DNA from: Pedobacter cryoconitis
Lineage (GTDB): Bacteria; Bacteroidota; Bacteroidia; Sphingobacteriales; Sphingobacteriaceae
Direction: 5' to 3'
Length of the DNA stretch: 64,000 nt
Assembly (NCBI GenBank): GCA_019352875.1
Contig: JAAAFW010000015.1
Span: 970,056 to 1,034,055 of the forward strand
Positions 1,269 through 47,930 of the stretch are shown here, piece after piece. How positions within the stretch are numbered: position 1 is the stretch's first letter; every line of letters begins with the position of its first letter. The notes below the pieces were generated by a model, which had not been told where the DNA came from, searched no databases, and saw only the letters and a program-made list of their open reading frames with translations. A program made the translations under genes and the position numbers.

Positions 1269-2615
1269 CTAAAAAACTCCGGTATAGTTAAATGGCGTGA
1301 TCTGTTTAAGTTCTGCTTTCAGATCCTCATTGATTTGAAGCCCGTCAATAAATTCAGCCATGGTATGCGCTGTGATCTTCTGATTGGTACGTGTAAGGTC
1401 TTTTAAAGCCTCATAAGGATTTGGATAAGCTTCTCTGCGTAATACAGTTTGAATAGCTTCTGCTACCACTGCCCAGTTGTTTTCCAGGTCGGCTGCAATG
1501 GCTTCTTCATTCAGTAATAACTTATTCAATCCTTTAATTGTGGACGCTATGGTAATCATAGTATGCGCTACAGGAACACCTACGTTTCGTAAAACTGTAG
1601 AGTCCGTCAGATCTCTTTGTAATCTGGAAACAGGAAGTTTAGCAGCAAAGAATTCAAAAAGAGCATTCGCCAGTCCGGCATTACCTTCTGCATTTTCAAA
1701 GTCAATCGGGTTAACTTTATGCGGCATTGCCGAGGATCCAACTTCTCCCTCTTTAATCTTCTGCTTGAAATAGTTTTTGGAGATATATGCCCAGATATCG
1801 CGGTCCATATCTACAATAATTGTATTAATTCTTTTCAGTGCATCACATTGTGCAGCAAACTGATCGTAATGTTCAATTTGTGTAGTATGTTGTGCACGGC
1901 TCAGTCCCAGCGTCTCATTCACGAACTGGTTACTGAATTCTACCCAGCTGATTTGTGGATACGCAATGTGGTGCGCATTGAAATTTCCAGTAGCACCGCC
2001 AAATTTTGCACTGTTTGGAATCTGCTTAAGGCTTGCTAATTGTATTTCAAGTCTCTCTGCAAAAACCAGGAACTCCTTACCCAATTTAGTTGGGGAAGCA
2101 GGTTGCCCGTGAGTATGTGCTAAAAGTGGTACGTCTTTCCAGTCTGCAGCGAGTTCTTTGATCCTTTCGATCAGTTTAGTGATCTGCGGATAATATACTT
2201 CAGTTAAAGCAAGTTTAAAGGTATAAGGGATCGCAGTATTATTGATATCCTGAGATGTCAGGCCAAAATGAATAAATTCTTTGAATTCCTGAAGACCCAG
2301 GTTATCAAAACGTTTTTTTATAAAATATTCTACTGCCTTAACATCATGATTTGTTACTTTTTCAGTATCCTTTACTTCCTGCGCATCTGCGTCGCTGAAT
2401 CCTGTGAAGATTTCACGAAGTTTACCATAGTTCGAACGGTCAAAACTGCTTAAACCAGCAAGTCCTGTTTCACACAGAGCGATGAAATATTCAATCTCTA
2501 CATAAATTCTGTATTTGATCAGTGCAGACTCTGAAAAGTACTTTGCCAGATCCTGAGTGGTGCTTCTATAGCGTCCGTCGACCGGGGAGATGGCCTGAAG
2601 TGAAGATAAATTCAT
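1269..2615 (-). CDS. purB: Adenylosuccinate lyase
   Basis: At 448 aa this is full length. It starts with the typical LQAISPVDGRY of the long bacterial PurB type and contains the fumarase/aspartase-superfamily signature GSSAMPHKVNP on the flexible catalytic loop. The HTHGQPASPTKLGKE segment supplies a catalytic His. The enzyme acts twice in purine synthesis, cleaving SAICAR to AICAR and adenylosuccinate to AMP, each time releasing fumarate. No other pur genes are nearby, which is common in Bacteroidota. A terminator separates it from the lipoprotein gene upstream. Confidence 0.97.
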   Translation of the reverse strand: MNLSSLQAISPVDGRYRSTTQDLAKYFSESALIKYRIYVEIEYFIALCETGLAGLSSFDRSNYGKLREIFTGFSDADAQEVKDTEKVTNHDVKAVEYFIKKRFDNLGLQEFKEFIHFGLTSQDINNTAIPYTFKLALTEVYYPQITKLIERIKELAADWKDVPLLAHTHGQPASPTKLGKEFLVFAERLEIQLASLKQIPNSAKFGGATGNFNAHHIAYPQISWVEFSNQFVNETLGLSRAQHTTQIEHYDQFAAQCDALKRINTIIVDMDRDIWAYISKNYFKQKIKEGEVGSSAMPHKVNPIDFENAEGNAGLANALFEFFAAKLPVSRLQRDLTDSTVLRNVGVPVAHTMITIASTIKGLNKLLLNEEAIAADLENNWAVVAEAIQTVLRREAYPNPYEALKDLTRTNQKITAHTMAEFIDGLQINEDLKAELKQITPFNYTGVF

Positions 2616-2664
2616 GAATGGGTTTGTTTTTTACTGCCCAAAGATACCCAAATCTATGGCAAAA

Positions 2665-2696
2665 AAAAAGGCTTTGGATTGATCCAAAGCCTTTTT
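2665..2696. terminator. Intrinsic terminator between small lipoprotein and purB
   Basis: Arms GGCTTTGGA (2670-2678) and TCCAAAGCC (2683-2691) flank a 4-nt loop, with A-rich and T-rich flanks. It ends the minus-strand lipoprotein transcript before purB. Confidence 0.85.
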
Positions 2697-2713
2697 ATAA
2701 GGGTAATTCTAGC

Positions 2714-2923
2714 TTAGTGAGCTGGTTTAACTTCAGTAGTAGTAGTTTTAACAGCAGTATCTTGAACTGTAGAATCTTTAACTGTAGTATCAACGTCAGT
2801 AACGATAGTTGAAGAATCAGTTACAGTTGTATCTACTGCTTCAGCTTTGTTTTCTGAGTTACATGCTGCTACTGATAAAGAGATTGCTAAAGCTAAAAAG
2901 CCGAATTTAAATAAGTTTTTCAT
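2714..2923 (-). CDS. Small Thr/Val-rich lipoprotein of unknown function
   Basis: This 69-aa product has a lipoprotein signal (MKNLFKFGFLALAISL, then lipobox VAAC with the acylated Cys at about residue 21). The mature part is low complexity, rich in Thr, Val, Asp and Ser with repeated DTTV/DSTV-like units, and has no recognisable domain. Small lipoproteins of this kind are common in Sphingobacteriaceae. It is divergent from the ECF sigma gene across about 110 nt that contains an inverted repeat, so the two could share regulation. That link is inference only. Confidence 0.75.
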   Translation of the reverse strand: MKNLFKFGFLALAISLSVAACNSENKAEAVDTTVTDSSTIVTDVDTTVKDSTVQDTAVKTTTTEVKPAH

Positions 2924-2977
2924 TTGAATACTGTTTAAAATAATTAATTAATTTTACAGATTAATACCCCAAAGGCC

Positions 2978-3044
2978 AAAAGGTAACCCAGCTTTTTAAA
3001 AAAAAGATTAAAGTTTTTTTTTGTCTAATATTGGGTTACCATTT
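2978..3044. promoter_or_regulatory. Inverted repeat in the sigma/lipoprotein divergent promoter region
   Basis: GGTAACCCA at 2982-2990 recurs as its reverse complement TGGGTTACC at 3032-3040. The match extends to about 13 nt with one mismatch. The arms are 41 nt apart and flank A/T tracts. TAATATTG at 3027-3034 resembles the Bacteroidota -7 element TAnnTTTG, so the right arm would overlap the start of transcription of the sigma gene. The binding protein is unknown. Confidence 0.4.
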
Positions 3045-3063
3045 ACATATAAATGTATTAATA

Positions 3064-3639
3064 GTGAGTAATAAGTTAAGCAGTTCAGTTCCAACAGATA
3101 GAGAGGTAGTTTTAGGTATACTGAATAACTCGGAAGATGTGCTCAACAGGTTGTATATTGGATATTTTCCGATGATTTTACAACTAATCTTGAATAATAA
3201 TGGGGACGAAGACGACGCGAAGGATGTGTATCAGGAAGCTATTATTATATTATATAACAAGATAAAGAGCGGAGATTTTGAATTAAGCAGTAAACTGAAA
3301 ACATATATTTATTCCGTATGCAGAAGAATCTGGTTGAAAAAACTTGCACAGCAAAGTAAAACAACCGGTAATGTTTCGGATTTTGAAGATGTAATCGCAG
3401 TTGATGTTGATGTAGAGGAGCACGAAGAGAAAGATCTTCAATTTGAAAAAATGGGTTCAGCATTGAAAAATCTGGGCGAACCCTGCAAAACAATTATTCA
3501 GGATTTTTATATTAACAATCTCAGCATGCAGGATATTTGCGAGAAATTTGGTTATACCAATACGGATAATGCCAAGACTCAAAAATATAAATGCCTGCAA
3601 AGATTAAAGAAGTTATTTTTCAAACCTGACACGGCATGA
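3064..3639 (+). CDS. ECF-family RNA polymerase sigma factor
   Basis: Sigma region 2 is visible around DAKDVYQEAIIILYNKI and the following LKTYIYSVCRRIWLKKL. A region 4 helix-turn-helix lies near the C-terminus (MQDICEKFGYTNTDNAKTQK). The frame can begin at TTG 3031 (202 aa) or GTG 3064 (191 aa). I chose GTG because a possible -7 element overlaps 3031; there is no earlier in-frame ATG. The last codons overlap the next ATG (ATGA at 3636-3639), so the two genes are translationally coupled. The acidic linker between regions 2 and 4 is typical of Bacteroidota ECF factors. Its target promoters are unknown. Confidence 0.85.
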   Translation: MSNKLSSSVPTDREVVLGILNNSEDVLNRLYIGYFPMILQLILNNNGDEDDAKDVYQEAIIILYNKIKSGDFELSSKLKTYIYSVCRRIWLKKLAQQSKTTGNVSDFEDVIAVDVDVEEHEEKDLQFEKMGSALKNLGEPCKTIIQDFYINNLSMQDICEKFGYTNTDNAKTQKYKCLQRLKKLFFKPDTA

Positions 3640-4730
3640 GGAACGAGATAAAATTAGAAGCAATTATTGAAGACTACCTGATGGGTAAATTATCTCCTGA
3701 GGAAAAGGAGGCCTTTGAGCTGCTGCGGGTCAATGATCCTGCTGTGGATCATAAGGTAGTTGCGCATAAATTCTTTTTAGATTCTTTGAAGCAATATGGC
3801 AATGTGCATAGCTTAATCCAGCAAATGGATAAGGCACATGCAGAAATGGATATGGAAAGCCTTGTAGAGGAATACAAACCACATCCTTCATATATTGTGA
3901 ATATGTGGCGCAAAAATAAATCTGCGTTTGCTATTGCAGCTTCTTTTCTGCTTATCAGTATCTTTTCAATTTATTCTATACAACATAATACCAAACAGAA
4001 CGGTACTTATGAAGTCATGCGCAGAGAGATTACAAATATTAAAAACAGTCAAAATAAACTTGTCCGTTCATTAAATGCTCCTGCTAAACAGGAAAAAGGT
4101 CATTTGAATGCGGCAAAGTTTGGCGGTACCGGTTTTGCTTTAACTGCAAATGGTTATTTATGTACTAATTTTCATGTGATCAGGGATGCTGATTCAATCT
4201 ATGTACAAAATAATAAGGGCGACTCTTATAAAGTAAAGGTTGTTTATCGTGATCCGCAGTACGATATTGCCATTCTTAAAATTATTGATGAATCATTCAG
4301 CCCGCTTGCAACTTTGCCTTATAAACTTAAAAAGAATGCAATTGGTATGGGAGAAAATGTATATACATTAGGATTCCCTAAAGATGATGCTGTTCTTGGT
4401 GAAGGGTATGTAAGTTCCAGAACCGGACATGGCGGAGATACTACACAATATCAGGTTTCTATTCCTATTAATCCTGGAAACAGCGGAGGCCCTCTGCTTG
4501 ATAACCAGGGTAATATCATTGGTGTAATTACAGCCAAAGAGAATCAGGTTGAAGGTGCCGCTTTTGCGATCAAATCTAAATATATTCTGGAAGCATTAAA
4601 TGCGATTCCGCAAGACTCCTTGGGTAAAAAGGTGGCTTACTCTAAAAAGAATCCTTTACAGGGGCTTAATAGAACCAGACAGATTGAAAAGATCGAAGAC
4701 TATGTTTATATGATTAAGGTCTATAATTAA
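3636..4730 (+). CDS. Membrane-anchored trypsin-like serine protease with cytoplasmic anti-sigma-like N-domain
   Basis: This is a 364-aa single-pass protein. Residues 1-90 are cytoplasmic and helical; they resemble the N-terminal part of Bacteroidota anti-sigma proteins (IEDYLMGKLSPEEKEAFE) but lack a zinc-binding HxxxCxxC. Residues about 97-114 form a transmembrane helix. Residues about 155-325 form a trypsin/DegP-like (S1C) protease with a complete triad: His180 (TNFHV), Asp210 (QYDIAIL) and Ser283 (GNSGGP). There is no PDZ domain. The gene overlaps the sigma gene by 4 nt, which suggests that it holds or senses for that sigma factor. The protease side would face the periplasm. Confidence 0.85.
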   Translation: MRNEIKLEAIIEDYLMGKLSPEEKEAFELLRVNDPAVDHKVVAHKFFLDSLKQYGNVHSLIQQMDKAHAEMDMESLVEEYKPHPSYIVNMWRKNKSAFAIAASFLLISIFSIYSIQHNTKQNGTYEVMRREITNIKNSQNKLVRSLNAPAKQEKGHLNAAKFGGTGFALTANGYLCTNFHVIRDADSIYVQNNKGDSYKVKVVYRDPQYDIAILKIIDESFSPLATLPYKLKKNAIGMGENVYTLGFPKDDAVLGEGYVSSRTGHGGDTTQYQVSIPINPGNSGGPLLDNQGNIIGVITAKENQVEGAAFAIKSKYILEALNAIPQDSLGKKVAYSKKNPLQGLNRTRQIEKIEDYVYMIKVYN

Positions 4731-33996: not shown

Positions 33997-35064
33997 TTAT
34001 AGCTGCTTTTTTAAGGTAACTGCAATTACCCCGTATTTACCTTTTTCGCCAAAGCGGGCGATCGCAGTTTCGCCTTTAAAGACATTGATCGATTCAATTT
34101 CGTTTGTGTCCAGATTTTCAATAGAGCTCATCTCTATGCCGTTAACCATGTAAATAGGCGGTAAAGTTTTTACTTTAGCCGCCTGACCGGAGGTGACGTT
34201 ATTCCTGAGAGTCTGGTAATTTGGTTTTGCAAATGCGAAGAATATCAAAGCGAAACAAGGAGCCAATAATACTACACTCCACTTTTTTGTTTCTCCTGAT
34301 GCCCGTTTCTTCATCATATCAATTCTGCTAAGTGGATTGTCACCTGCAAAAGAACTGCTGAGGTTGAATACCTGGTTTTGCAGACTATGGTTTAATAGTG
34401 TTGCGCGGTAGACTGCTCCAGGGTTTCCAGCTTCAAGTACGGTTTGGTCTGCCAGATACTCATGATTTTGTCTTATTGCTTTTAAGTACAGCCATGCAAT
34501 TGGATTAAACCATTGGAAAATTCTCATTAATTGCGCGATTTGCATATCAAGCCAGTGCTTTTGAATTACATGCGCTTTCTCATGTTCAAGGATAAGGCGC
34601 TGTTCTAATGTAGAACCAGTAATTTCAGTATCCAGGAAGATATAGCTGAAGATGGAGAAAGAAGTTTTAAACTGATCAGTGTAGGTGATTTTACAATTAT
34701 TTACTACTTCAAAATCATGCTGGGAAACCAGTTGTCTGGCCTTTTTCAATGACAGTAGGTAATTAAGTATAAAACTAAAAGCGACAACAAAATAAATGAG
34801 CAGACCAATCTGCAGGGAACTGAGTATAGTATTGTTTCCTTTTGCCGGATTAAGAATTGAACTTCCGTTAAATATCGGACTGACTGTGTGCACCGTGTAA
34901 CTGAAGTTGAGCAAAGGAAGGATAACAGAAAGAAAGATGCCTGTTAGCAGAAAATATCTGTTGAATTTAAAGAAGGTTTCCTTTTTCAGGAACATGTAAT
35001 AAATTCCGTAGCACAGAGACAGGAACAGACTTGATTTAAGCAGATATAAAACGATTTCCTCCAT
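33997..35064 (-). CDS. M56-family (BlaR1-like) membrane metallopeptidase with plug-like tail
   Basis: This 355-aa protein has four probable membrane helices (about 5-25, 35-55, 80-105 and 260-278) and a gluzincin site, HEKAH at about residue 162 (HExxH) with the downstream NHEYLAD. In BlaR1-type systems the peptidase leads to removal of the BlaI repressor after a signal. The C-terminal 70 residues (IYMVNGIEM, ESINVFKGETAIARFGEKG) resemble a TonB-dependent receptor plug rather than a penicillin-binding sensor. This occurs in other Bacteroidota M56 proteins. It follows blaI by 3 nt. Confidence 0.87.
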   Translation of the reverse strand: MEEIVLYLLKSSLFLSLCYGIYYMFLKKETFFKFNRYFLLTGIFLSVILPLLNFSYTVHTVSPIFNGSSILNPAKGNNTILSSLQIGLLIYFVVAFSFILNYLLSLKKARQLVSQHDFEVVNNCKITYTDQFKTSFSIFSYIFLDTEITGSTLEQRLILEHEKAHVIQKHWLDMQIAQLMRIFQWFNPIAWLYLKAIRQNHEYLADQTVLEAGNPGAVYRATLLNHSLQNQVFNLSSSFAGDNPLSRIDMMKKRASGETKKWSVVLLAPCFALIFFAFAKPNYQTLRNNVTSGQAAKVKTLPPIYMVNGIEMSSIENLDTNEIESINVFKGETAIARFGEKGKYGVIAVTLKKQL

Positions 35065-35067
35065 ATC

Positions 35068-35463
35068 TTATTTTTTTTGTTCTTCAGTTAGCTCTCTTCG
35101 TGTTTGCTCAATCATCTGATCCAGCTCCTCTATGGAATAATTGTTTTCTTTAGCGAAAAATGATGCCATTGTTGCGAACGAACCGTTGAAGTAGTTATGG
35201 AGCAATCCAGAGAGCATGGATCGGGAATACTGTTCCTTTTTGATTAAAGGCACATAGGTGTTTACACGACCGGCTGTTGTATGACTAACAAAACCTTTGT
35301 TTTCGAGAATCGTTAACACTGTTGATACTGTGGTCCTGGCCGGTTTTGGTACTTCCAATACTTCCAAAATATCCTGAACAGTAGCTTGCTTAAGATTCCA
35401 CAGCGCTTGCATGATCTGCTCTTCAGCTTTGGTCAGTTGTACAGGTGTGGGAGATTTCTTCAT
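35068..35463 (-). CDS. BlaI/MecI/CopY-family transcriptional repressor
   Basis: This 131-aa winged-helix protein has the family start LTKAEEQIMQALWNLKQATV, a recognition segment (PARTTVSTVLTILENKGFV) and a C-terminal dimerisation helix. Such repressors are inactivated through a partner M56 peptidase, here the next gene. The putative operator GACTAATTTTATAGAC lies between its -33 and -7 promoter elements, which suggests autoregulation. Similar sites precede the adjacent GLPGLI gene. No beta-lactamase gene is present in the window. Confidence 0.92.
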   Translation of the reverse strand: MKKSPTPVQLTKAEEQIMQALWNLKQATVQDILEVLEVPKPARTTVSTVLTILENKGFVSHTTAGRVNTYVPLIKKEQYSRSMLSGLLHNYFNGSFATMASFFAKENNYSIEELDQMIEQTRRELTEEQKK

Positions 35464-35467
35464 ACCT

Positions 35468-35499
35468 TAAAGTTAGGACTAATTTTATAGACAATCAAA
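35468..35499 (-). promoter_or_regulatory. blaI promoter with embedded operator
   Basis: On the minus strand TTTG (35496-35499) is followed after 20 nt by TAACTTTA (35468-35475), one mismatch from TAnnTTTG. Between them is GTCTATAAAATTAGTC (35477-35492), a near-perfect GTCTA-N6-TAGAC palindrome. A repressor bound here would block RNA polymerase. Confidence 0.65.
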
Positions 35500-35510
35500 T
35501 GGTTTTCGGG

Positions 35511-38156
35511 TTATTCATTGCTGCGGGTTTTGCCGCGCAGATTAAATTTTACCTTCAGCATAAGCTGAGCCGGTCTTAACATATAATTAGCTATACGGTA
35601 ACCAACAGCATCATAGTTCGCCGTTACATAGTCTTTGGTGTTAAATAAATTAGTGTAGTCCATACTGAAGTCAACAGATTTAAACCTGTAACGTATTCCC
35701 GCATTAGCGAAATGCACAGTTTTGCTTCCTGTATAGGTGTTTTGAACGTAATATCTCTCCTGTGAAATATTAATTGTCATCTTTTTGGATGGGAAGAAAT
35801 TCAGCCGGGAGGATTGTATTTGCGTGCGAACAGGTTTGAAGATATCTGGTATCCCATAAATTTTATTTCTACTGCTGCTGAATAAGAGACTTCCTGCCAC
35901 ACTAATCCAGGGGCTCAGACGGGTAGTAAAAGAGGGTTTGAAGCTAATGGTTTCGTAAATGGACTTATAGAATTCCTGCTGACTGATTTGCTCACCCTTG
36001 TCCGAGCCATAACTCCCTTCGAGTGTGAAAGTGCCCTTAATTGCATCGATACCCTTACTTATTCGCGCAGAAAGCCGGTTAGAAAAACTTTGGTTTGGCA
36101 GAATATAAGCAGTCAGTACCTGAAACTGGCCATTAAAGGTATAACTGTAAATCAGGTTACTCATTTTCCAGTTTGCAGTATTGTTGAGGTTTATGAAAAG
36201 AGATTTTACAGGATTGTTGTAGTTCCAACCCCCTGAGATTCCTTTCAGTTCAATTTCCTGCAGTTCGTTGCTATTGCGCGTCAGCATGCGATAATTCTGC
36301 ATAATAATTCCAGGAATAATCTGGTCTGCTTCCCCCAGAGTGCTGTTCCGATATAAATTGATATTTAAATTCATCATCGGGCTAATCTCATAGTTTACAT
36401 AAATTGAAGGGTTAATAAACAGGCGGTTTTTAACTTGATCCAGGTGGTTATATCTTTCCCTGATCTGCAGGCTGGCTACCTTTAACGGGAGGCTGAAGCT
36501 GAGCCTGAACTTACCTGTAAGAAAGATTAAATCCGGATTGAAATATACTTCAGCACCATTCCATTTTAAATGATTTTTTAAAGAATCACCCGAATTGGAG
36601 CCCTTGTTATATTCCTGCAGATCTGAATAGATACGACGCTCCTTCAATTCCATACCTGCAGTATAATTATGTTTGAATTTATTTCGGTTCCATCCGAAGC
36701 TAATTTTATTCTTCGTGCTCCATTGCTGATCGGTTAAATCCTGATTCCATTGGCCTGAACCCGGAAGAGCCGACAGAAAGGGAAAGCTCACCGGCGAAAC
36801 CATTAATTCCTGTGGCGAGCGTTCAAATCTTGAAGCCGAGGACAGTTTAAGTAAACCTTTACCATATTGTTTAACGAGATCGAATTTGTTTTCGAATACA
36901 TAATTTGGTTGACTCAGATTTTGAATAACACTATCCTGCTGCAGTGCAATGCCGTTTGAGCTACCCCAGTCTCCCAGAAAACTAAGTTCCTGATTCAGGT
37001 AGTATTTTTTATTATTGATATTGTACTTTAGTGCACCCTCAAACTGATTAATCCGCCTGGTAGAGCTGAGTTGTTCGCTAATTTCCAATAGTTTTTCCTG
37101 TGTCAGATAATAACCGGTATTTGCTAAGCTGCTTCGCTGTTGTACGTCCTGCAGATAGCTTAAATTCAGATTAAGTTGCTTGTCATTTTCAAATGCCCAT
37201 AAATTATTTACCGAAATTGCATGAGCCCGATTGAACAGATATCTATTCTGATTAACCGGTGGATCTCCAGGTTCCTGTATGCTCAGTTTCAAATCCTGTT
37301 GATTTTGGTTTCCAGGATAGAAATGTCGAAATTCAGCTCCCGGATCCTGACCGGTATTATTTCCTTTATAAGTATTTATCATTTGTCTCCCGGATTTGAA
37401 ATACATTCCGAATAATTCATTGTCCCATAAAAATGGTTTTATACCACTCCCTAATTGGGCATTGGCCACTAGTACCCCTTTTGCAGCATCCTTTAATTTT
37501 ATATTTATGGCAGCTTCATTGGTAAATTCACTGTTTATCAGTGCTTTTACAGGCTGGTGATTTTCCATAACCTGTACGGTAGCTACATCTGCAGCAGTAA
37601 TATTATTCGTTGCGATTCCATACCGTCCCTGTAGCAGGTCTTTCTGTTCGATATAGAATTTATTAATTGGCTTATTATTATACAGTATACTCCCGTTTTC
37701 TTTCACTTCAATACCGGGCATTTTTTTGAGTACATCTCCAATTGTGCGGTCATTCTGATCCGTAAATTCGTCTACCAGATAGTTTAATGTATCTTTTCTC
37801 CGGCTTATTCTTGGAGGCTTAACTTTTAGTTCTTTTAGCTGAATGGCATTTGGCTTTAGTGTGATATTGGCTAGTTGGCTATGGTTAGCCAGATACACTA
37901 CTTTACTTTCCATGCCGATTCCGTTTATGAAAATTCCCAGGGTATCAGCAGTGGATGTAAATTGAACTTGATATGCTCCCGAAGGTTTAGTACGTGAATA
38001 GGTAAGAATAGAATCAGTAGCTTTAGTTCTAACAGTTATCTGGATTCCTGCAACCCCCTTCATATCGGGTGCAGCGATAATGGTACCGCTCCATATAGTT
38101 TGACTTTTGATTTGCTGCAGTTGAAAAAACAGAAGAAAAAAGTATAAATACCTCAT
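35511..38156 (-). CDS. TonB-dependent-receptor-like outer-membrane beta-barrel protein
   Basis: The 881-aa protein has a signal peptide, then a carboxypeptidase-like regulatory (Ig-like) domain at about 20-110, a plug-like domain (TIGDVLKKMPGIEV at about 137, then NNKPINKFYIEQKDLLQGR) and a long C-terminal barrel with many alternating aromatic strands. Proteins of this group are TonB-receptor relatives at the outer membrane; no classical TonB box was recognised. Its ATG shares one base with the stop of the GLPGLI gene, so the two form an operon. Two BlaI-type palindromes precede that operon. Confidence 0.88.
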   Translation of the reverse strand: MRYLYFFLLFFQLQQIKSQTIWSGTIIAAPDMKGVAGIQITVRTKATDSILTYSRTKPSGAYQVQFTSTADTLGIFINGIGMESKVVYLANHSQLANITLKPNAIQLKELKVKPPRISRRKDTLNYLVDEFTDQNDRTIGDVLKKMPGIEVKENGSILYNNKPINKFYIEQKDLLQGRYGIATNNITAADVATVQVMENHQPVKALINSEFTNEAAINIKLKDAAKGVLVANAQLGSGIKPFLWDNELFGMYFKSGRQMINTYKGNNTGQDPGAEFRHFYPGNQNQQDLKLSIQEPGDPPVNQNRYLFNRAHAISVNNLWAFENDKQLNLNLSYLQDVQQRSSLANTGYYLTQEKLLEISEQLSSTRRINQFEGALKYNINNKKYYLNQELSFLGDWGSSNGIALQQDSVIQNLSQPNYVFENKFDLVKQYGKGLLKLSSASRFERSPQELMVSPVSFPFLSALPGSGQWNQDLTDQQWSTKNKISFGWNRNKFKHNYTAGMELKERRIYSDLQEYNKGSNSGDSLKNHLKWNGAEVYFNPDLIFLTGKFRLSFSLPLKVASLQIRERYNHLDQVKNRLFINPSIYVNYEISPMMNLNINLYRNSTLGEADQIIPGIIMQNYRMLTRNSNELQEIELKGISGGWNYNNPVKSLFINLNNTANWKMSNLIYSYTFNGQFQVLTAYILPNQSFSNRLSARISKGIDAIKGTFTLEGSYGSDKGEQISQQEFYKSIYETISFKPSFTTRLSPWISVAGSLLFSSSRNKIYGIPDIFKPVRTQIQSSRLNFFPSKKMTINISQERYYVQNTYTGSKTVHFANAGIRYRFKSVDFSMDYTNLFNTKDYVTANYDAVGYRIANYMLRPAQLMLKVKFNLRGKTRSNE

Positions 38157-39049
38157 TATTTCAACTCCATAGGGACATAATTGATCTCACCTGGAAATTC
38201 TGCAAGGATCAGATTGCCAAAACTGAAATTAACCTGCATACCGGATGGTTGTTTAGCCTTCATTTTTTCGAAATCGGCCCTGCTACATTTTATGCTGCCG
38301 GCAGGAATCTGAATCGGAACCGGTATTTTAGTTTGTTCAAGCCCAATCAGGGAGAAGCTAAATAGCTGAAGACTGTCTTCCACTTTGACAATCAGGCCAG
38401 GCAATCCCATAAATTTCCATGGTCCGTCATTTATTGGAACTTCAGGGCTGAACCATGCGGTGTATTCCCGTCCCCGAAAGTTTAATCTGGCTTGTTTACA
38501 GCTATATGAATTGATGATTGTATCTGGTATTTGCTGTATTTTCCAATCCATCGGACCTACCTGATCTTCATATTCAAAAGACTTACCATTAACAGAAGTA
38601 TAGTCTACAACTTTAATTTTACCAGTATTCAGGTCTTTAAATATCTGATAGCTTTCGCCTTCATCTGCCCTGGAACTCACTGTACCCTGCATAGTGGAGA
38701 GGTCCTTTCCATTTTCGCTTCTAAAGACGGAGATGGATTTTATAGTTTCCGTATTCGGAATATTCATGCTTGCACGAACCATAGAATCTCTGTGCTGTCT
38801 GGAGGGATCATAAAACCTGGATTTCTCTGGCCCGGTTTCCAATACCAGCGTATCGCGGCGGGAAGAAGAGGATGCACCAGACCGGGTAAATTCATAATAA
38901 CATTTGATATTGGATTCTCCAAACCGGGCTGTTTGTTTTGTGTTTCCCTCTGCCTGTCTTTGCTCTTCTATTGTTTTAACTTTTTGCTGCGCGGAAGCTG
39001 ATATAAAAACGGTGCAGACTAAAACCGTGATGACACTGAATTTGATCAT
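38156..39049 (-). CDS. GLPGLI family protein
   Basis: The 297-aa protein has a signal peptide (cleavage after SASA) and the diagnostic motif GLPGLIVKVED at about residue 220. It has the length and the C-terminal pattern expected of this Bacteroidota family of exported proteins. GLPGLI proteins are usually paired with TonB-receptor-like barrels, as here. The pair may act together in the periplasm or outer membrane, but the substrate is unknown. It is the first gene of the operon and is preceded by two copies of the palindrome found before blaI. Confidence 0.92.
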   Translation of the reverse strand: MIKFSVITVLVCTVFISASAQQKVKTIEEQRQAEGNTKQTARFGESNIKCYYEFTRSGASSSSRRDTLVLETGPEKSRFYDPSRQHRDSMVRASMNIPNTETIKSISVFRSENGKDLSTMQGTVSSRADEGESYQIFKDLNTGKIKVVDYTSVNGKSFEYEDQVGPMDWKIQQIPDTIINSYSCKQARLNFRGREYTAWFSPEVPINDGPWKFMGLPGLIVKVEDSLQLFSFSLIGLEQTKIPVPIQIPAGSIKCSRADFEKMKAKQPSGMQVNFSFGNLILAEFPGEINYVPMELK

Positions 39050-39090
39050 AAAGATTGATGTTAGGGTTAGAAATCTATATACAATCTTAC

Positions 39091-39106
39091 GTCTATAAAT
39101 TTAGAC
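39091..39106. promoter_or_regulatory. BlaI-type operator 1 (GLPGLI/DoxX intergenic)
   Basis: GTCTATAAATTTAGAC, with perfect 5-bp arms GTCTA/TAGAC around 6 nt. It starts 42 nt upstream of the GLPGLI ATG. Minus-strand TAAGATTG lies next to it and may be the -7 element. Confidence 0.6.
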
Positions 39107-39128
39107 AAACAAGTTATTTTCGAATTTA

Positions 39129-39144
39129 GTCTAAAAGTATAGAC
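39129..39144. promoter_or_regulatory. BlaI-type operator 2 (GLPGLI/DoxX intergenic)
   Basis: GTCTAAAAGTATAGAC has the same arms and spacing, and lies 38 nt (centre to centre) from operator 1. It is preceded by TTT on the minus strand, as is operator 1 (TTTGTCTA in both). Confidence 0.6.
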
Positions 39145-39255
39145 AAATAAATTTTTAAAAGGAATACCGGGATATCTGGGCCAGTGGATTTGGTTAAACT
39201 GGGGTAGTAAATGCAATTAGAATGCAGGTAGATTTGTGCCGCAAAAAACATATTT

Positions 39256-39702
39256 ATGGAAGATTCATTTAAAATGCCGCAACTGCTTTTAAGATGTGCG
39301 TTAGGTATCACATTTCTCGTTCCTGTTTCAGACAGGATGGGGGTGCTGGGACCAATCGGAACTGGAAATGTAGAATGGGGTAATTGGGTAAACTTTATAA
39401 ACTATACATCTACTTTAATGCCTTTTTTAGACAGACCCATGGTTAATCTAATGGGCGGCATAGCTACCATTGCAGAGTTCGTGATAGGAGTTTTATTAAT
39501 TGTCGGTTATAAGACCAAATATGCCGCAGTCGCGAGTTGCATTCTTACGCTTTTATTCATTTTATCGATGACAGTTTTCGTCGGTATACAACAACCTATA
39601 AATTTCGGTGTGTTTACGGCCTGTACCGCTAGTCTGCTACTTTCCGCTATTCCGAACTATAAATGGAGTATTGATAATTTGATTAAATTTAAAAGGGCTT
39701 AG
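39256..39702 (+). CDS. DoxX-like small membrane protein
   Basis: The 148-aa protein has four hydrophobic segments in the DoxX/DoxD arrangement (LLRCALGITFLVPVSDRMG, then GGIATIAEFVIGVLLIVGY, then two more). The molecular role of the family is poorly known; members associate with redox or thiol-stress proteins. It is divergent from the GLPGLI gene. TAGATTTG at 39229-39236 matches a -7 element about 20 nt before the ATG. It lies 76 nt before an AhpD-like gene, which suggests one unit. Confidence 0.82.
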   Translation: MEDSFKMPQLLLRCALGITFLVPVSDRMGVLGPIGTGNVEWGNWVNFINYTSTLMPFLDRPMVNLMGGIATIAEFVIGVLLIVGYKTKYAAVASCILTLLFILSMTVFVGIQQPINFGVFTACTASLLLSAIPNYKWSIDNLIKFKRA

Positions 39703-39778
39703 CCTGCATCAGCCATTCTAAAATAGAAGTTGTTATTAACAATCAGCAGATCATAAATAATTATAATAAGATAATAAA

Positions 39779-40213
39779 ATGGAAACACGTATTAAAATTG
39801 ACCAGGTCGAACAAGCTGGTTACAAAGCAATTCTGGGCCTTGAAAAATTTATTGAAAGTACCCCGTTAACCAGAATTCATAAAGATTTAATAAAAATCAG
39901 AGCATCACAGGTGAATGGATGTGCTTTTTGTATTGATATGCACACCAGGGATGCACGTAATTCAGGAGAAACGGAACAACGTATATATAGCCTTAATGCC
40001 TGGCGTGATACCCCTTTTTTTACTGACGAAGAACGTGCTATTCTGGCTTTGACTGAGGAAGTTACTTTGATAAGTGACCATGTTAAAGACAAAACTTACC
40101 AGAATGCATTGGATCTGTTGGGAGAAAGTTATCTGGCTCAGGTTATCCTTGCCATAATTACTATAAACGCCTGGAATAGAATTGGAATAGCTACACAGCT
40201 TATGCCGAAGTAG
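39779..40213 (+). CDS. Carboxymuconolactone decarboxylase/AhpD-like protein
   Basis: The 144-aa helical protein has the AhpD active-site motif CAFCIDMH (CxxC followed by His). This supports thiol-based peroxidase or hydroperoxidase-reductase chemistry rather than true decarboxylation. The preceding RASQVNG and later EERAILALTEEVT are also typical. It sits between DoxX and a MocR-type regulator, a common neighbourhood. A terminator follows. Confidence 0.92.
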   Translation: METRIKIDQVEQAGYKAILGLEKFIESTPLTRIHKDLIKIRASQVNGCAFCIDMHTRDARNSGETEQRIYSLNAWRDTPFFTDEERAILALTEEVTLISDHVKDKTYQNALDLLGESYLAQVILAIITINAWNRIGIATQLMPK

Positions 40214-43373: not shown

Positions 43374-44663
43374 TTACCAGTATGTAATACCAGTTAATCT
43401 GGCCATTTCAATCTGAGCGGTGCAAAGCTGATATTCATATTGTAATCTTGTCAACTCTGCCCTCTGTACATTTGTACTGGCATTGATCAGTTCCAGATTT
43501 GTTCCAATGCCATTTTTATAACGACTTTGTGCCAATTTTTGAGCTTCCTTTGCCTGATTTATCTGGCCCAATGCATTCACCAGGCTGGAGCGGTTACTGG
43601 CTATGTCTGCAAGCGTTTGTCGTATATTTCTATCGAAGGTATTGTTTAGAGTCTGTGTCCCAAGTTTAGCCTGGTCTAACTGACTTTTTGAGATATGGTT
43701 CTGTTTTTTTATCTGCCCGCCCCGGTAAATGGGGATAGAGAGTGTCGCACCTGCGGTATAATTGTATCTGAATTGATCAATATCCGGTGCATAACCATTT
43801 GAATATCCCGTTCCTGCAGTTAAAGTGAGGGATGGTTTACCACCGGTTTTACTGATGGCAAGTTCCATTTCTGCTTCTTTAATTTTAGATTTCAATAATT
43901 TGTATTCTGGATTATATTGTTGTGCAATCTCCAGCGCATGAGATGCATCAGCTGCGGTTTCCAGACCAGGGAGCAGAAAACTCCGGACACTTACCTCAAC
44001 CTTTTTGCCAGTTGCGTATTCCATTAAGATGTACTGTTTATTCAAGGTATTCTGAAGGTCAATTTTCCGGTTGTTTTCCTGATCAATACTGGATTGGATA
44101 GACAAGACATCATACTTTAAGGCATCCCCATTTTTGTATTTAATTTCAGTATCCTTACGGTTTGTCTCTAGAAAAGCGATTACACTATTTTGAATTTCAA
44201 TAGCCGATTTAAGATAAATGACCTGATAATAAATGTTGGCTACCTGTGCCGCCATTTGATTTTTATTATAGTCCAGATTGTCTTTTGCAGACTGAAGAGC
44301 AGCTTTGGCCCTGTCAACCTTTGCTTTTACCACACCAAAATCCAACAGCGTGTAACTTCCGTTTAATGCAGCTTTATAATTATTTTTAGGGATGGTCTGG
44401 AAACTGATCTGCTGTTCGCCGGGTACGACGATTTCGGAGACGGGATTAATATAATTATAGCTGCCATTTATATCTAAGACCGGCAGTCCTGCGGTTTTTG
44501 CCAGGCCAATTTTCTGCTGTTCTATATCGATACCCTGTTCCATTTCCCTGAATTGGGGGAAATAAGAAAAAGATTCATTGATCAATTTGGAGAGCTCACC
44601 CGTTTTTTGCTGTGCGTAAAGAGAAGGGGAGCATATAAATAATAATAAAAATAGACGTTTCAT
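43374..44663 (-). CDS. TolC-family outer-membrane efflux protein
   Basis: This outer-membrane factor has a signal peptide (MKRLFLLLFICSPSLYAQ) followed by two similar helical-hairpin halves typical of TolC. Landmarks are LLDFGVVKAKVDRAKAAL and, in the second half, PIYRGGQIKKQNHISKSQL. I start it at ATG 44663 (429 aa); the longer frame to 44720 overlaps the transporter gene and has no signal. It forms the exit duct for the HlyD/EmrB-type pump encoded just upstream. Confidence 0.92.
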   Translation of the reverse strand: MKRLFLLLFICSPSLYAQQKTGELSKLINESFSYFPQFREMEQGIDIEQQKIGLAKTAGLPVLDINGSYNYINPVSEIVVPGEQQISFQTIPKNNYKAALNGSYTLLDFGVVKAKVDRAKAALQSAKDNLDYNKNQMAAQVANIYYQVIYLKSAIEIQNSVIAFLETNRKDTEIKYKNGDALKYDVLSIQSSIDQENNRKIDLQNTLNKQYILMEYATGKKVEVSVRSFLLPGLETAADASHALEIAQQYNPEYKLLKSKIKEAEMELAISKTGGKPSLTLTAGTGYSNGYAPDIDQFRYNYTAGATLSIPIYRGGQIKKQNHISKSQLDQAKLGTQTLNNTFDRNIRQTLADIASNRSSLVNALGQINQAKEAQKLAQSRYKNGIGTNLELINASTNVQRAELTRLQYEYQLCTAQIEMARLTGITYW

Positions 44664-44679
44664 GTGATTGATGTTTTGA

Positions 44680-46266
44680 TTAATGTGCTTCCGCAGCAAT
44701 TTTAGCTCTGGTTTCAGCATCCATAGTTTGATTTTTCAGAAGCAGCATAAAAGGAATGGTGCAGGCAAAAAATATGGAGATGAGAAGGAATCCATCCAGA
44801 TAAGCCTGCATTTGTGCCTGATTAGATAAGGCATGATCCAAAACTCCGTGTGCGGCCTGCCTTGCAGCTATCGGATTAACACCTTTTGCAATTAATCCAT
44901 GGCTGATTCCTTCAATTCGCTCCGTTAGAAGCGGGTTGTTTTCCTGCAGGTTGGAGACCAGGTCAGAGCGGTGTGTTGCAAAGCGATTGGTTGCATAAGT
45001 GTTCATAATCGCAATACCAAATGCACCACCCAGCTGACGGAACATATTATTCAGGGAAATTCCATAAGCCATATCCTGCACTTTTAAGCCTACCACTGCC
45101 TGACTAAGTAAGGGTACCGTCAGACAACCGGTACCGACTCCTCTAAATATCTGTGTCATGGCGAACCATCCTCTACTTGCATCGGGGGAAGCGAGCGAAC
45201 TGGTGTAGCCGTGGAGTATAAAGAGGGTAAATCCCAGAATCACAAAATAAATCGGCTTAACACCCTTTCCCAGAGCAGTTCCGATGAACGGCATCGCAAA
45301 TATTGTAACCAGGGCTCCCGGAACCATAGCCAGGCCGGATTCGGTCGGAGTATAGCCCATTACCCGCTGTACCATAACAGGAAACAAGTAGACGGAGCCA
45401 AACAGTCCGAACCCACATACGAAAGTAAGGACGTTACTTCCAACGAGATTACGATTTTTAAGTACGCGAAGGTTGATAGCAGGCGTTTTGGTGTGTAGTT
45501 CCCACCAGATAAAAAACGCAAGGCTCACTACTGCCAGAGCGGTCAGGTATCTGATGTGTTCGGTTTGAAACCAGTCTTCAGATTGTCCTTTTTCCAAGAT
45601 ATATTGTAGTGCACCTATACCAATAGCCAGGGATAGAATACCCATATAATCTATTGGGATAGCTTTCCTGTCGATATTATATTCGTCCTCTTTTCTGTCT
45701 ATAAATTTCCAGGTTAACAACGCTGCAACAATTCCGATTGGAATATTAATGTCGAAGATGAGTGCCCAATGATAATTATCTATGATATACCCGCCTAATA
45801 TAGGGCCGATGGTCGGACCTATGACGATACCCATTCCAAAAATACCACCGGCAATACCTTTTTCCTCAGGTTTAAACTGGTCGAATAAAATGCCCTGAGA
45901 TACTGAAAGCAATGCTCCGCCACCTATACCCTGAACAAATCGCCAGAACACAAGCATCCATAACGAGGATGAGGCTCCGCACATATAAGAAGCGATGGTG
46001 AAAATGATAATAGAAGTCAGATAGTAGTTTTTTCGCCCAAAGTAGCGGCTTAAAAAACCTGTCAGCGGGATAATGATTACGTTGGCGATAGCATAAGAGG
46101 TCACAACCCAGGATGCATCTTCCAGTGTTGCACCTAAAGTGCCGCTAATATTATTTAATGCGACATTGATGATGGACATATCGATCAGTTCCATGATTGC
46201 CGCAGTAATTGTGGTAATGATGATAATGATCTTTATGAATTTATTTCTTTCAGCAGCCATTTTCAT
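44680..46266 (-). CDS. DHA2-family (EmrB/QacA) drug efflux permease
   Basis: The 528-aa MFS transporter has 14 predicted membrane helices. DHA2 motifs include MELIDMSIINVAL in helix 1 (motif D1) and GRFxGRK-like LSRYFGRKNYY (motif A), with GGIFGMGIVIGPTIGPILGG as motif C. Such proteins expel drugs with protons and work with an HlyD adaptor and TolC in Gram-negative cells. The ATG at 46266 lies 5 nt after the adaptor gene; a second Met at codon 3 could also serve. The TolC gene follows 16 nt later. Confidence 0.95.
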   Translation of the reverse strand: MKMAAERNKFIKIIIIITTITAAIMELIDMSIINVALNNISGTLGATLEDASWVVTSYAIANVIIIPLTGFLSRYFGRKNYYLTSIIIFTIASYMCGASSSLWMLVFWRFVQGIGGGALLSVSQGILFDQFKPEEKGIAGGIFGMGIVIGPTIGPILGGYIIDNYHWALIFDINIPIGIVAALLTWKFIDRKEDEYNIDRKAIPIDYMGILSLAIGIGALQYILEKGQSEDWFQTEHIRYLTALAVVSLAFFIWWELHTKTPAINLRVLKNRNLVGSNVLTFVCGFGLFGSVYLFPVMVQRVMGYTPTESGLAMVPGALVTIFAMPFIGTALGKGVKPIYFVILGFTLFILHGYTSSLASPDASRGWFAMTQIFRGVGTGCLTVPLLSQAVVGLKVQDMAYGISLNNMFRQLGGAFGIAIMNTYATNRFATHRSDLVSNLQENNPLLTERIEGISHGLIAKGVNPIAARQAAHGVLDHALSNQAQMQAYLDGFLLISIFFACTIPFMLLLKNQTMDAETRAKIAAEAH

Positions 46267-46271
46267 ATTGA

Positions 46272-47321
46272 TTAATGAATTTTAACATCAGCTTCTACGC
46301 TCAAACCAGCTTTTAAAATGGTTTGAAGTGAGGAGAGGTCATCGATATCAATAATCACAGGAACGCGCTGTGTTACTTTTACGAAATTTCCGGTGGAATT
46401 ATCAGGTGGCAGGAGCGAGAATTTTGCTCCGGTTGCATCACTGAAACCAGATATTTTTCCTGAGATCGTGTGGTTTGGATAGCCGTCTACTTTGATGTGC
46501 ACAGGTTGTCCCACCCTCATATGTTCGATCTGAGTTTCCTTGAAATTCGCTACCACCCAATATTTTTCATTACTGACCAAACTGAAAAGTTGTTGTCCGC
46601 CCTGAACGTACTGGCCCTTTCTTAGATTTGTTTTACCAACCTTCCCAGTAGATGGTGCAATAATTCTGGTATAAGAAAGATTAAGTCTTGCGCTTTGCAG
46701 GGCAGTCTCTTTAGCAGCAATATTGGCTTTAGCTTTAGCTATCTGTGCTTCTGCCGTACCGGTCTGTGTACCAGCCTGTGTAAGCCGGCTGCGGCTGGAA
46801 AGTAGCATTTTTTGTGCAGTTTCATAGGCAGACTGGCTGTTTTCAAATTGTCTCTGTGTAATAGATCCTTCTTTAAATAAAGCCTCATCACGGACAACGT
46901 CTCTTTTGGCCTTTTGAAGTGCGACCTCTTCTACGTTGATTCCCGCAGAAGCGACTTGTTTATTAGAGCCGATTGTTGGTAACTGGGATTCGGCACTGCT
47001 CAAGTCTGCTTTTGCGCCCAAAAGGTCGGCTTCAGCTTGTTGAACGGCCAGGGTGTATTCATGATCGTCGATTACCGCGATAGTATCGCCTTCTTTGACT
47101 ACCTGATAATCCAGTAATGAAAATTCACTGATGTACCCAGGGATACGGCTTAAAACCGGAACTGAATTCGTTTCGATCTGCGCATTATCTGTGTTCTCGT
47201 AGTTTAAGGCATGATTTATTTTGTTGAATACAAAATAACATATAAGAATAGAGACCACTCCGGCCAGACCTATCTTTAATGATTTTTTAGACGACGATTG
47301 ATTTTTTTCTTCTGTTTCCAT
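46272..47321 (-). CDS. HlyD/EmrA-family membrane fusion adaptor
   Basis: The 349-aa protein has one N-terminal membrane helix (about 17-33), the adaptor signature NYENTDNAQIETNSVPV, a biotinyl-lipoyl-like domain split by a long coiled-coil hairpin (about 75-190) and a beta-barrel (RKGQYVQGGQQLFSLV). It bridges the EmrB-like permease and the TolC-like channel. It is the first gene of the operon. Its promoter region is covered by a perfect inverted repeat and is divergent from a MarR gene. Confidence 0.94.
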   Translation of the reverse strand: METEEKNQSSSKKSLKIGLAGVVSILICYFVFNKINHALNYENTDNAQIETNSVPVLSRIPGYISEFSLLDYQVVKEGDTIAVIDDHEYTLAVQQAEADLLGAKADLSSAESQLPTIGSNKQVASAGINVEEVALQKAKRDVVRDEALFKEGSITQRQFENSQSAYETAQKMLLSSRSRLTQAGTQTGTAEAQIAKAKANIAAKETALQSARLNLSYTRIIAPSTGKVGKTNLRKGQYVQGGQQLFSLVSNEKYWVVANFKETQIEHMRVGQPVHIKVDGYPNHTISGKISGFSDATGAKFSLLPPDNSTGNFVKVTQRVPVIIDIDDLSSLQTILKAGLSVEADVKIH

Positions 47322-47337
47322 GACATTAATTATTGTA

Positions 47338-47380
47338 CAAAAGTAAACTTAGTTGACTATATAAGTCAACTAAGTTTACT
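47338..47380. promoter_or_regulatory. MarR-type operator over the efflux promoter
   Basis: Arms 47342-47358 and 47364-47380 form a perfect 17-bp inverted repeat with a 5-nt spacer; the core reads TTGACTATATAAGTCAA. On the minus strand TACTTTTG (47338-47345) is an exact TAnnTTTG -7 element. A GTTG about 21 nt upstream of it lies inside the repeat. Binding would block the efflux operon. Confidence 0.8.
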
Positions 47381-47456
47381 AAAAATAATTACTCCAACCA
47401 GAAAAAGACAATTTGATGACAATAAGGTGTACTGAAAAAAGTCCTACTTTTACGGG

Positions 47457-47930
47457 ATGGAACAACAGGATATCAATACGCGGATAATTTTCAGAATTAT
47501 GTATCTTTTAAAGAGACTAACCGATAAATGGGTGTCTAATAATTTGTCAAAAGTCAGCTCATCTGATTTCAATGTTACGCATTTACCATATTTCATGAAT
47601 ATTGGTGATAACGGGATTTCCAATCATGATCTGGTTCAGTTGATTAAGGTTACTAAACAGGGTGTAAGTAAAATGATTAAAGAACTGGAAAGTCTCGGAC
47701 TTACTTATACAGTAAAAAGTGAGTCAGATGCCAGGTCAATTATGATCTATCTTACTGACGAGGGAAAGACCTTATTTGGTTTATTAAAGGCAGAAACATC
47801 CCAGTTACATGACGAGTATAGAAAGGTTGCCGGAGCTAAAAATTTCGAGATAACTATTGACACACTGCTCAAATTGATCGATTTGCACGAGAAGAAGGAA
47901 ATTGATTCAGCTGCCGAAAATAATAGATAA
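47457..47930 (+). CDS. MarR-family transcriptional regulator
   Basis: The 157-aa winged-helix protein has the recognition region GISNHDLVQLIKVTKQGVSK and the wing VKSESDARSIMIYLTDEG, with the conserved Asp-Ala-Arg. MarR proteins bind short palindromes as dimers and release on ligand binding. It is divergent from the HlyD-EmrB-TolC operon, and the perfect repeat between them is its probable operator. TACTTTTA just upstream of the ATG may be a -7 element for a nearly leaderless transcript. Confidence 0.9.
   Translation: MEQQDINTRIIFRIMYLLKRLTDKWVSNNLSKVSSSDFNVTHLPYFMNIGDNGISNHDLVQLIKVTKQGVSKMIKELESLGLTYTVKSESDARSIMIYLTDEGKTLFGLLKAETSQLHDEYRKVAGAKNFEITIDTLLKLIDLHEKKEIDSAAENNR

Follow-up and report, generated by a model that had tools for sequence, protein, structure and literature searches.

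The window analysed here is a stretch of 64,000 nucleotides from Pedobacter cryoconitis (contig JAAAFW010000015.1, positions 970,056-1,034,055 of the forward strand), and coordinates given without a locus label are positions within it. On its minus strand, four genes encode a GLPGLI family protein, an outer-membrane barrel, a BlaI repressor and an M56 (BlaR1-type) membrane metalloprotease, and palindromic sites that probably serve as operators of this BlaI precede both the GLPGLI gene and blaI. The genes, the candidate operators and the putative promoter cores are as follows.

38156-39049, minus strand: GLPGLI family gene, first of the presumed target operon (297 aa; signal peptide recognized by eye; TIGR01200 and Pfam Porph_ging)
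35511-38156, minus strand: outer-membrane barrel gene, TonB-dependent-receptor-like (881 aa; carboxypeptidase-regulatory-like N-domain, plug-like region and barrel; AlphaFold2 model)
35068-35463, minus strand: blaI repressor gene (131 aa; Penicillinase_R; R43-T44 in the recognition helix; F102-F103 at the BlaI cleavage position)
33997-35064, minus strand: M56 (BlaR1-type) membrane metalloprotease gene (355 aa; motifs HEKAH at 161 and NHE at 200; half of a SusC/RagA plug domain at the C-terminus, starting near residue 303)
39091-39106: proximal GLPGLI operator (exact GTCTA-N6-TAGAC; fills the promoter spacer; same place in relatives)
39129-39144: distal GLPGLI operator (exact GTCTA-N6-TAGAC; 38 bp start-to-start from the proximal one; upstream of the promoter)
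35477-35492: blaI-M56 operator (half-altered GTCTA-N6-TAGTC on the minus strand; inside the blaI promoter spacer)
39082-39108, minus strand: putative core of the GLPGLI promoter (TTG, operator, TAAGATTG; ends 32 nt before the ATG; relatives aligned by eye)
35468-35494, minus strand: putative core of the blaI promoter (TTG, operator, TAACTTTA; ends 4 nt before the ATG)

The barrel and GLPGLI genes share 1 bp. Domain searches covering 16 proteins of the window bore out the gene content implied by a preliminary description of the sequence: Pfam and NCBIfam models identify GLPGLI (TIGR01200, 160.2 bits against a cut-off of 50), Penicillinase_R (PF03965, 103.3 bits against 22.6, E 1.3e-29) and Peptidase_M56, the protease having hydrophobic stretches centred, by hydropathy, near residues 12, 46, 92 and 271. 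That description had also seen the outer-membrane operon as standing in place of a beta-lactamase; none is present among the scanned proteins, and the M56 protein gives no Pfam or NCBIfam match to a penicillin-binding domain at 0.01. Within the same set of proteins, the regulated unit has neither a beta-lactamase nor a PBP2a gene, its presumed targets being GLPGLI and the barrel. The broader statement that resistance genes are absent holds close by but not farther out, where a TolC-MFS-HlyD efflux operon and a MarR gene occupy 43374-47930. This efflux operon, with the MarR gene divergent from it, lies 4 kb from the module and is without an exact operator.

Exact GTCTA-N6-TAGAC sites are expected 0.05 times in the window, and two were reached in 0 of 100 dinucleotide shuffles. 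A scan of the whole genome (4,934,032 bases in 22 contigs), proposed in the preliminary description, found the pair at 39.1 kb to be the only exact copies in its 4.93 Mb. All three sites had been described as the same palindrome, which is true of both sites at 39.1 kb but not of the blaI site, where one mismatch gives GTCTA-N6-TAGTC on the coding strand. Their location between -33 and -7 elements agrees with minus-strand TTG-TCTA-N6-TAG(A/T)C-N-TA at 35494-35468 and 39108-39082, in which a TTG and a TA-box flank each operator (TTGTCTAAATTTATAGACGTAAGATTG at the proximal GLPGLI site, TTGTCTATAAAATTAGTCCTAACTTTA at the blaI site). These promoter readings are based on the Bacteroidetes consensus TTTG / TAnnTTTG; a scan for sigma-70 promoters and terminators gave nothing above chance. 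Only the proximal of the two GLPGLI sites, at 39091-39106, lies inside a promoter, and in the relatives aligned the operators abut the -7-like box.

By mismatch count the blaI site is unremarkable, the window holding 12 sites with at most two mismatches against 19.9 expected by chance. The same half-altered form precedes blaI in 11 of 11 Sphingobacteriales modules (window included), and the site is credible because of its position and conservation, not its mismatch count. The blaI ATG lies 4 nt past the putative -7 box (35464-35475), and similarly short distances recur in relatives; the blaI messenger may therefore be nearly leaderless, with a very short or absent leader. Candidates for further chromosomal targets were taken from the five one-mismatch sites of the form GWCTA-N6-TAGWC in the window genome, the fifth being C10:1832515. 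The four examined were set aside: one is the blaI site, two are intragenic (L003, L012) and one lies between convergent genes (L010).

The evidence bearing on the function of these sites is comparative throughout. A first protein search of 201 family genomes brought up a single clear counterpart of the complete unit, in genome G170, with the same four genes and the same three sites (BlaI 71-73% and barrel 41-42% identical to those of the window). The BlaI proteins of the window and of G170 were used to scan 84,980 species, and from the best 80 of 467 confirmed loci the 77 with a called BlaI gene were counted (3 dropped; 1.1 Mb in total). GLPGLI, barrel, BlaI and M56 stand together, in differing flanks, in six of the best 80 loci: L081-L085 and L096, the last with two GLPGLI genes (L081, L083 and L084 belong to genomes G626, G670 and G650). 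In the 77 loci, 27 of 27 exact sites precede either blaI (16 sites, from 250 bp upstream of the gene as called to 20 bp inside it) or the GLPGLI operon (11 sites), and spacers of 4, 5, 7 or 8 instead of 6 gave no match upstream of blaI. Further linked modules occur in G497, G509, G539 and G569, and the distinct linked modules known number 12, of which 11 are from Sphingobacteriales (window included) and one is L096. An exact pair precedes GLPGLI in all 11 Sphingobacteriales modules, with start-to-start spacings of 29, 38 or 39 bp. In G539, the GLPGLI gene (L278 6502-7353) has an in-frame stop; the operators, barrel, BlaI and M56 are kept.

Motif-first and barrel-first tests covered 399 family genomes, with a barrel threshold of E < 1e-100. 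The exact double site occurs in nine of these genomes, at one place each, and a related barrel in 11, which include all nine; in 9/9 the double site is followed by GLPGLI, barrel, BlaI and M56, the BlaI bearing the same R43-T44 pair as that of the window (RT class). The two other barrels, those of G676 and G593, have no BlaI/M56 in the 10-kb stretch and no site before GLPGLI, and an RT-class BlaI was not found among the four and two BlaI-like genes of these genomes, respectively. In a tree of 16 barrels, the five site-bearing ones fall into one clade with G676. This makes G676 informative: its barrel groups with those that have sites, and the genome lacks regulator and sites alike.

Nine genomes with an RT-class BlaI outside Sphingobacteriales were examined for sites unlinked to blaI. 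In G687 (Dysgonomonas UBA7710), BlaI-M56 is found in L087, and the only exact pair of the genome precedes an unlinked GLPGLI-barrel operon (L319). Among 101 genomes of the same Dysgonomonas family, with about 3 kb read per stretch, 21 have one exact pair each, against 0 for a control pattern. Of these 21 double sites, 12 are followed by BlaI-M56 and eight by GLPGLI, the ~3-kb stretches of the latter containing no BlaI; the last is at a contig end (L328), where the other neighbour resembles that of a GLPGLI locus. At the eight unlinked GLPGLI sites, TAnnTTTG comes directly after the site and the spacing is 29 bp in 8/8. Thus, the link between operator and GLPGLI holds also where the genes lie apart. 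In D. hofstadii (G693), one exact and one GACTA/TAGAC site (L321 4678-4721) lie about 200 bp before an OMP_b-brl_3 barrel gene (1928-4477), which is a possible further target.

These comparisons strengthen the proposal of the preliminary description that BlaI/M56 controls the GLPGLI-barrel operon, since the pair, an RT-class BlaI and the operon occur together in 9/9 family genomes, regulator and sites are jointly absent in G676, and the pair also precedes unlinked Dysgonomonas GLPGLI genes. We consider it likely, with a probability of about 0.82, that GLPGLI, barrel, blaI and M56 form a self-contained regulatory module in which BlaI represses, M56 induces and the output is a carrier/transporter.

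Several points weigh against this conclusion. The co-occurrence has a hypergeometric p of 8.5e-17, a value that ignores shared ancestry, 11 of the 11 barrel genomes being from one genus; because the five site-bearing barrels share one clade with G676, the link between BlaI and sites could go back to a single origin in a shared ancestor and have been inherited since. The reversed control pattern is itself no rarity, with 18 occurrences spread over 11 of the 399 family genomes, and therefore the location of the sites, not their frequency, carries the argument. Locus L096 has a single site before GLPGLI and none before blaI, and among the eight genomes with unlinked GLPGLI sites the presence of BlaI is established for G687 (L087) alone. 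Besides, the signal and its sensing by a plug-like tail of the protease, described below, are steps that we infer.

Two other explanations of the palindromes were weighed. They might serve only the autoregulation of blaI-M56, together with read-through, the GLPGLI sites being chance occurrences or relics, and such an arrangement would suit genes that are collinear and a terminator scan that found none between barrel and blaI. Yet the GLPGLI promoters hold the better sites (two exact), these sites are kept in promoters whose barrels have diverged to 36-44% identity and whose flanks differ, and copies apart from BlaI exist, all of which makes autoregulation alone hardly credible. Alternatively, some other transcription factor could bind the palindromes, with BlaI-M56 merely adjoining them, and adjacency by itself indeed proves nothing. 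Such a factor is very improbable, however, given that the sites track the RT class among 204 BlaI proteins, are absent from the two genomes that have the barrel but no RT-class BlaI, precede blaI itself as well as GLPGLI operons apart from BlaI, and have a register that fits the BlaI/CopY family.

The preliminary description had added that the divergent DoxX gene (39256-39702) could also be affected, and doxX does diverge from the shared intergenic region. As a target it was rejected: the only TAnnTTTG box found on its side (39229) is some 85 bp past the sites, both sites persist in the nearest relative, P. antarcticus (L081), from which DoxX is gone, and tblastn found no DoxX match at E<=1 in 14 stretches around 11 other modules. 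DoxX is thereby excluded as a conserved part of the unit on comparative grounds, and control of doxX by BlaI in the window appears very improbable. In P. antarcticus ATCC 51969 (L081 3755-4207, compared with window 39256-40213), the gene after the lost DoxX starts with the first residues of DoxX (MEDSFKM, followed by ETRIKIDQ), as if DoxX had been cleanly deleted.

A set of 204 distinct BlaI proteins, from 204 loci, relates the operator to the repressor. An unbiased count of palindromes before blaI revealed a shared core, CTA-N6-TAG, with differing outer pairs, and these vary with recognition-helix residues 43-44. Among proteins with symmetric sites, the YN class has AA in 66/70 and TA in 4/70 (all four with His42), the YT class TA in 53/53, the RN class GA in 6/6 and the RT class GT in 13/14, the only symmetric site of the remaining RT protein being GCCTA; 15 YN, 17 YT, 7 RT and 11 RN proteins have no symmetric site. 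Where a protein has a single label (146 proteins), position 1 is G in 19/19 with Arg43 and A or T in 125/125 with Tyr43, and the residue pair predicts 141 of the 146 labelled operators, compared with 127 for the best single column.

Other observations speak against a recognition code. Taken singly, residues 43 and 44 are not at the top, columns 51 and 83 carrying more mutual information; in the stretch counted, 34 of the 204 proteins lack a CTA-N6-TAG site; of the remaining 170, 24 received no single class of the four; and a mixture of GACTA and GTCTA sites is frequent among RN proteins. With the helix columns left out, the tree yields 1, 2 and 1 independent pairs, mostly concordant and too few for significance. 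BlaI residues 43-44 tracking the outer operator bases, with about four independent switches, is thus a candidate recognition code drawn from sequence comparison. The window genome has five BlaI proteins; the YN-type paralog L016 is preceded by two AACTA-N6-TAGTT sites, in agreement with the rule, and paralogs L017, L019 and L020 have no sites. Before blaI, sites of the two Arg43 classes are spaced 28-30 or 38-41 bp apart, with one outlier of 141. These spacings are one helical turn apart and therefore suggest that BlaI binds paired sites cooperatively on one face of the DNA.

The predicted structures of the target proteins bear on what the module delivers. The GLPGLI model, with a predicted local distance difference test (pLDDT) score of 79.6, is nearest to the PNGF-II N-domain (Z 16.1) and, with less certainty, to LolA (Z 9.2), RseB (Z 8.2) and similar carriers of the LolA/LolB/RseB superfamily with its half-open beta-barrel; Pfam PNGase_F-II_N is over the cut-off in 3/3 Dysgonomonas-family relatives scanned, and the window GLPGLI protein gives no such match at 0.01. 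The AlphaFold2 model of the barrel (pLDDT 86.5) has a TonB-receptor fold (Foldseek E ~3e-16; FhuA Z 15.0, OprC Z 14.1, BtuB Z 14-15) and compares with the SusC N-terminal domain at Z 12.2. With Pfam barrel and plug profiles, the window protein shows no match at 0.01 and its relative L041 a weak Plug match below the cut-off; the barrel relatives match CarboxypepD_reg, and Plug weakly in 1/3. Because of these predicted folds, an outer-membrane carrier-plus-transporter pair is plausible, transport being the role that the folds suggest. Our literature search returned no study of regulons under BlaI/M56 in Bacteroidota, nor any of what GLPGLI proteins do; in the open library searched, three papers name GLPGLI, and none turned up under its model names. 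GLPGLI genes are listed among the PhoP-affected genes of Riemerella (PMC9603813). In P. gingivalis, a BlaI/MecI/CopY gene near an M56 gene is given with altered expression (log2 -1.74) in a hemin experiment (PMC10470040), a loose lead.

The circuit could also be real with an output in envelope defence or repair, the GLPGLI protein acting as an RseB/LolA-like chaperone or damage sensor, the barrel as exporter or client, and outer-membrane damage as inducer. The nearness of the GLPGLI fold to LolA and RseB would suit such a role, and so would LTXXQ (Spy/CpxP-like) genes, hinting at envelope stress, which by eye adjoin blaI in 5 of 12 Dysgonomonas-family BlaI loci. Three of these genes were scanned (two over and one just under the Pfam cut-off).

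L302 750-1304; L303 1814-2428; L336 1751-2305: LTXXQ genes next to blaI

Fold likeness, on the other hand, shows no function, of the 12 further GLPGLI loci inspected in the family only that of G170 has BlaI/M56, and a TonB-receptor fold such as that of the barrel is typical of uptake. The LTXXQ genes lean to stress and the barrel fold to uptake, and we hold a defence output to be possible, with the odds somewhat against it.

The idea that other GLPGLI loci are targets of other BlaI classes was discarded: 13 loci without BlaI, comprising two from the window genome and 11 of the 12 other family loci (L046 without an adjoining barrel), gave one CTA-N6-TAG match, which is asymmetric. Upstream of four GLPGLI-barrel operons that lack BlaI lies a gene for a small protein (about 90-110 residues) that looks exported, has cysteines close to its end and may be a substrate; in the window, the space before the operon (39050-39255) is too short for such a gene.

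L041 4059-4358; L047 7059-7334; L048 6672-6986; L023 281-610: small exported-looking protein genes

The two regulatory proteins indicate how the proposed transport module might be switched. The C-terminal ~70 residues of the M56 protein match the SusC/RagA plug (OMP_RagA_SusC and SusC_RagA_signa at 303-353, below the model cut-offs), and in relatives this tail matches Pfam Plug, with scores that exceed the cut-off in L084 and L091 and fall short of it in L096. Against the BlaR1 equivalog the protein scores 30 bits, the cut-off being 400. Other M56 tails are found in BlaI-M56 paralogs of the window genome, namely TonB_C in L016 (228-1866) and Amidase_3 in L017 (1492-3320). Residues 9-117 of the window BlaI align with MecI (1okr), with MecI N101-F102 corresponding to F102-F103 of the window protein; F103 is kept in 21/21 RT-class BlaI proteins and in 147/204 overall.

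In the mechanism proposed for the module, a dimer of the RT-class BlaI (MecI/BlaI/CopY-type) would bind the 16-bp GTCTA-N6-TAGAC sites, two of which, mostly 38-39 bp apart, would shut the GLPGLI-barrel promoter, and blaI-M56 would be tuned through the blaI promoter, whose single half-altered site is presumably the weaker one. The periplasmic tail of M56, presumably derived from the plug of a SusC/RagA TonB receptor, would meet a signal and activate the protease, whose cytoplasmic domain would cut BlaI near F102-F103 and so open both promoters. GLPGLI, barrel, blaI and M56 would then rise together until fresh BlaI resets the switch, the output being two proteins: GLPGLI in the periplasm, its fold like those of LolA, RseB and PNGase F-II-N, and in the outer membrane a barrel resembling TonB receptors. 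In this scheme, repression, cleavage and signal follow the BlaR1 precedent, and binding and cargo are presumed; what the genomes display directly is the sites, with their placement, conservation, joint presence, joint absence and unlinked occurrence.

A defined switch of this kind would give a handle on the function of GLPGLI proteins and their barrels, both of which recur in the genomes read. In turn, the residue 43-44 rule offers a testable account of DNA recognition by repressors that are best known for their part in antibiotic resistance and, if true, would explain how five BlaI proteins share one genome without cross-talk. On a wider and rather doubtful view, Bacteroidota BlaI/M56 pairs would be general, insulated outer-membrane surveillance circuits, several side by side, with M56 tails borrowed from the machinery they watch and a two-residue operator code at the start of the recognition helix (YN AACTA, YT TACTA, RN GACTA, RT GTCTA); here, the plug tail would report on the GLPGLI-barrel system.

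Among known systems, S. aureus BlaI/BlaR1 and MecI/MecR1 share with the window unit the repressor family, an M56 protease with HExxH encoded beside the repressor, a palindromic 16-bp operator in target and regulator promoters, and a Phe at the BlaI cleavage position. The mec operator is TACTACATATGTAGTA. BlaR1 cleaves BlaI at N101/F102 (PMC9834060). In contrast to bla and mec, the window M56 protein has half a SusC/RagA plug as its tail and no match to a penicillin-binding sensor, the unit is without beta-lactamase or PBP2a, and the operator is GTCTA-N6-TAGAC. As described for CopY, the operator RNYKACANNYGTMRNY is 16 bp long, its sites are paired, and copper, acting on a Cys-X-Cys tail, releases the repressor (PMC7253601). 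CopY/CopR thus resemble the present system in the paired sites and in the 16-bp register of GTCTA-N6-TAGAC, whereas the window BlaI has no Cys and adjoins a protease, and the inner CA..TG bases of the CopY operator are not kept. LolA, RseB and DUF1329 (PDB 4z48) are like the predicted GLPGLI fold at Z 6.5-9.2, values that can reflect a common arrangement, with a sequence identity to GLPGLI of 4-14%. Finally, TonB-dependent receptors are regulated by extracytoplasmic function (ECF) sigma/anti-sigma pairs of the FecIR type, which likewise tie a periplasmic signalling step to the operon of a TonB receptor-like barrel; in the window, by contrast, a BlaI repressor and an M56 protease would act in their stead, and the plug-like piece is carried by the protease, not by the receptor alone.

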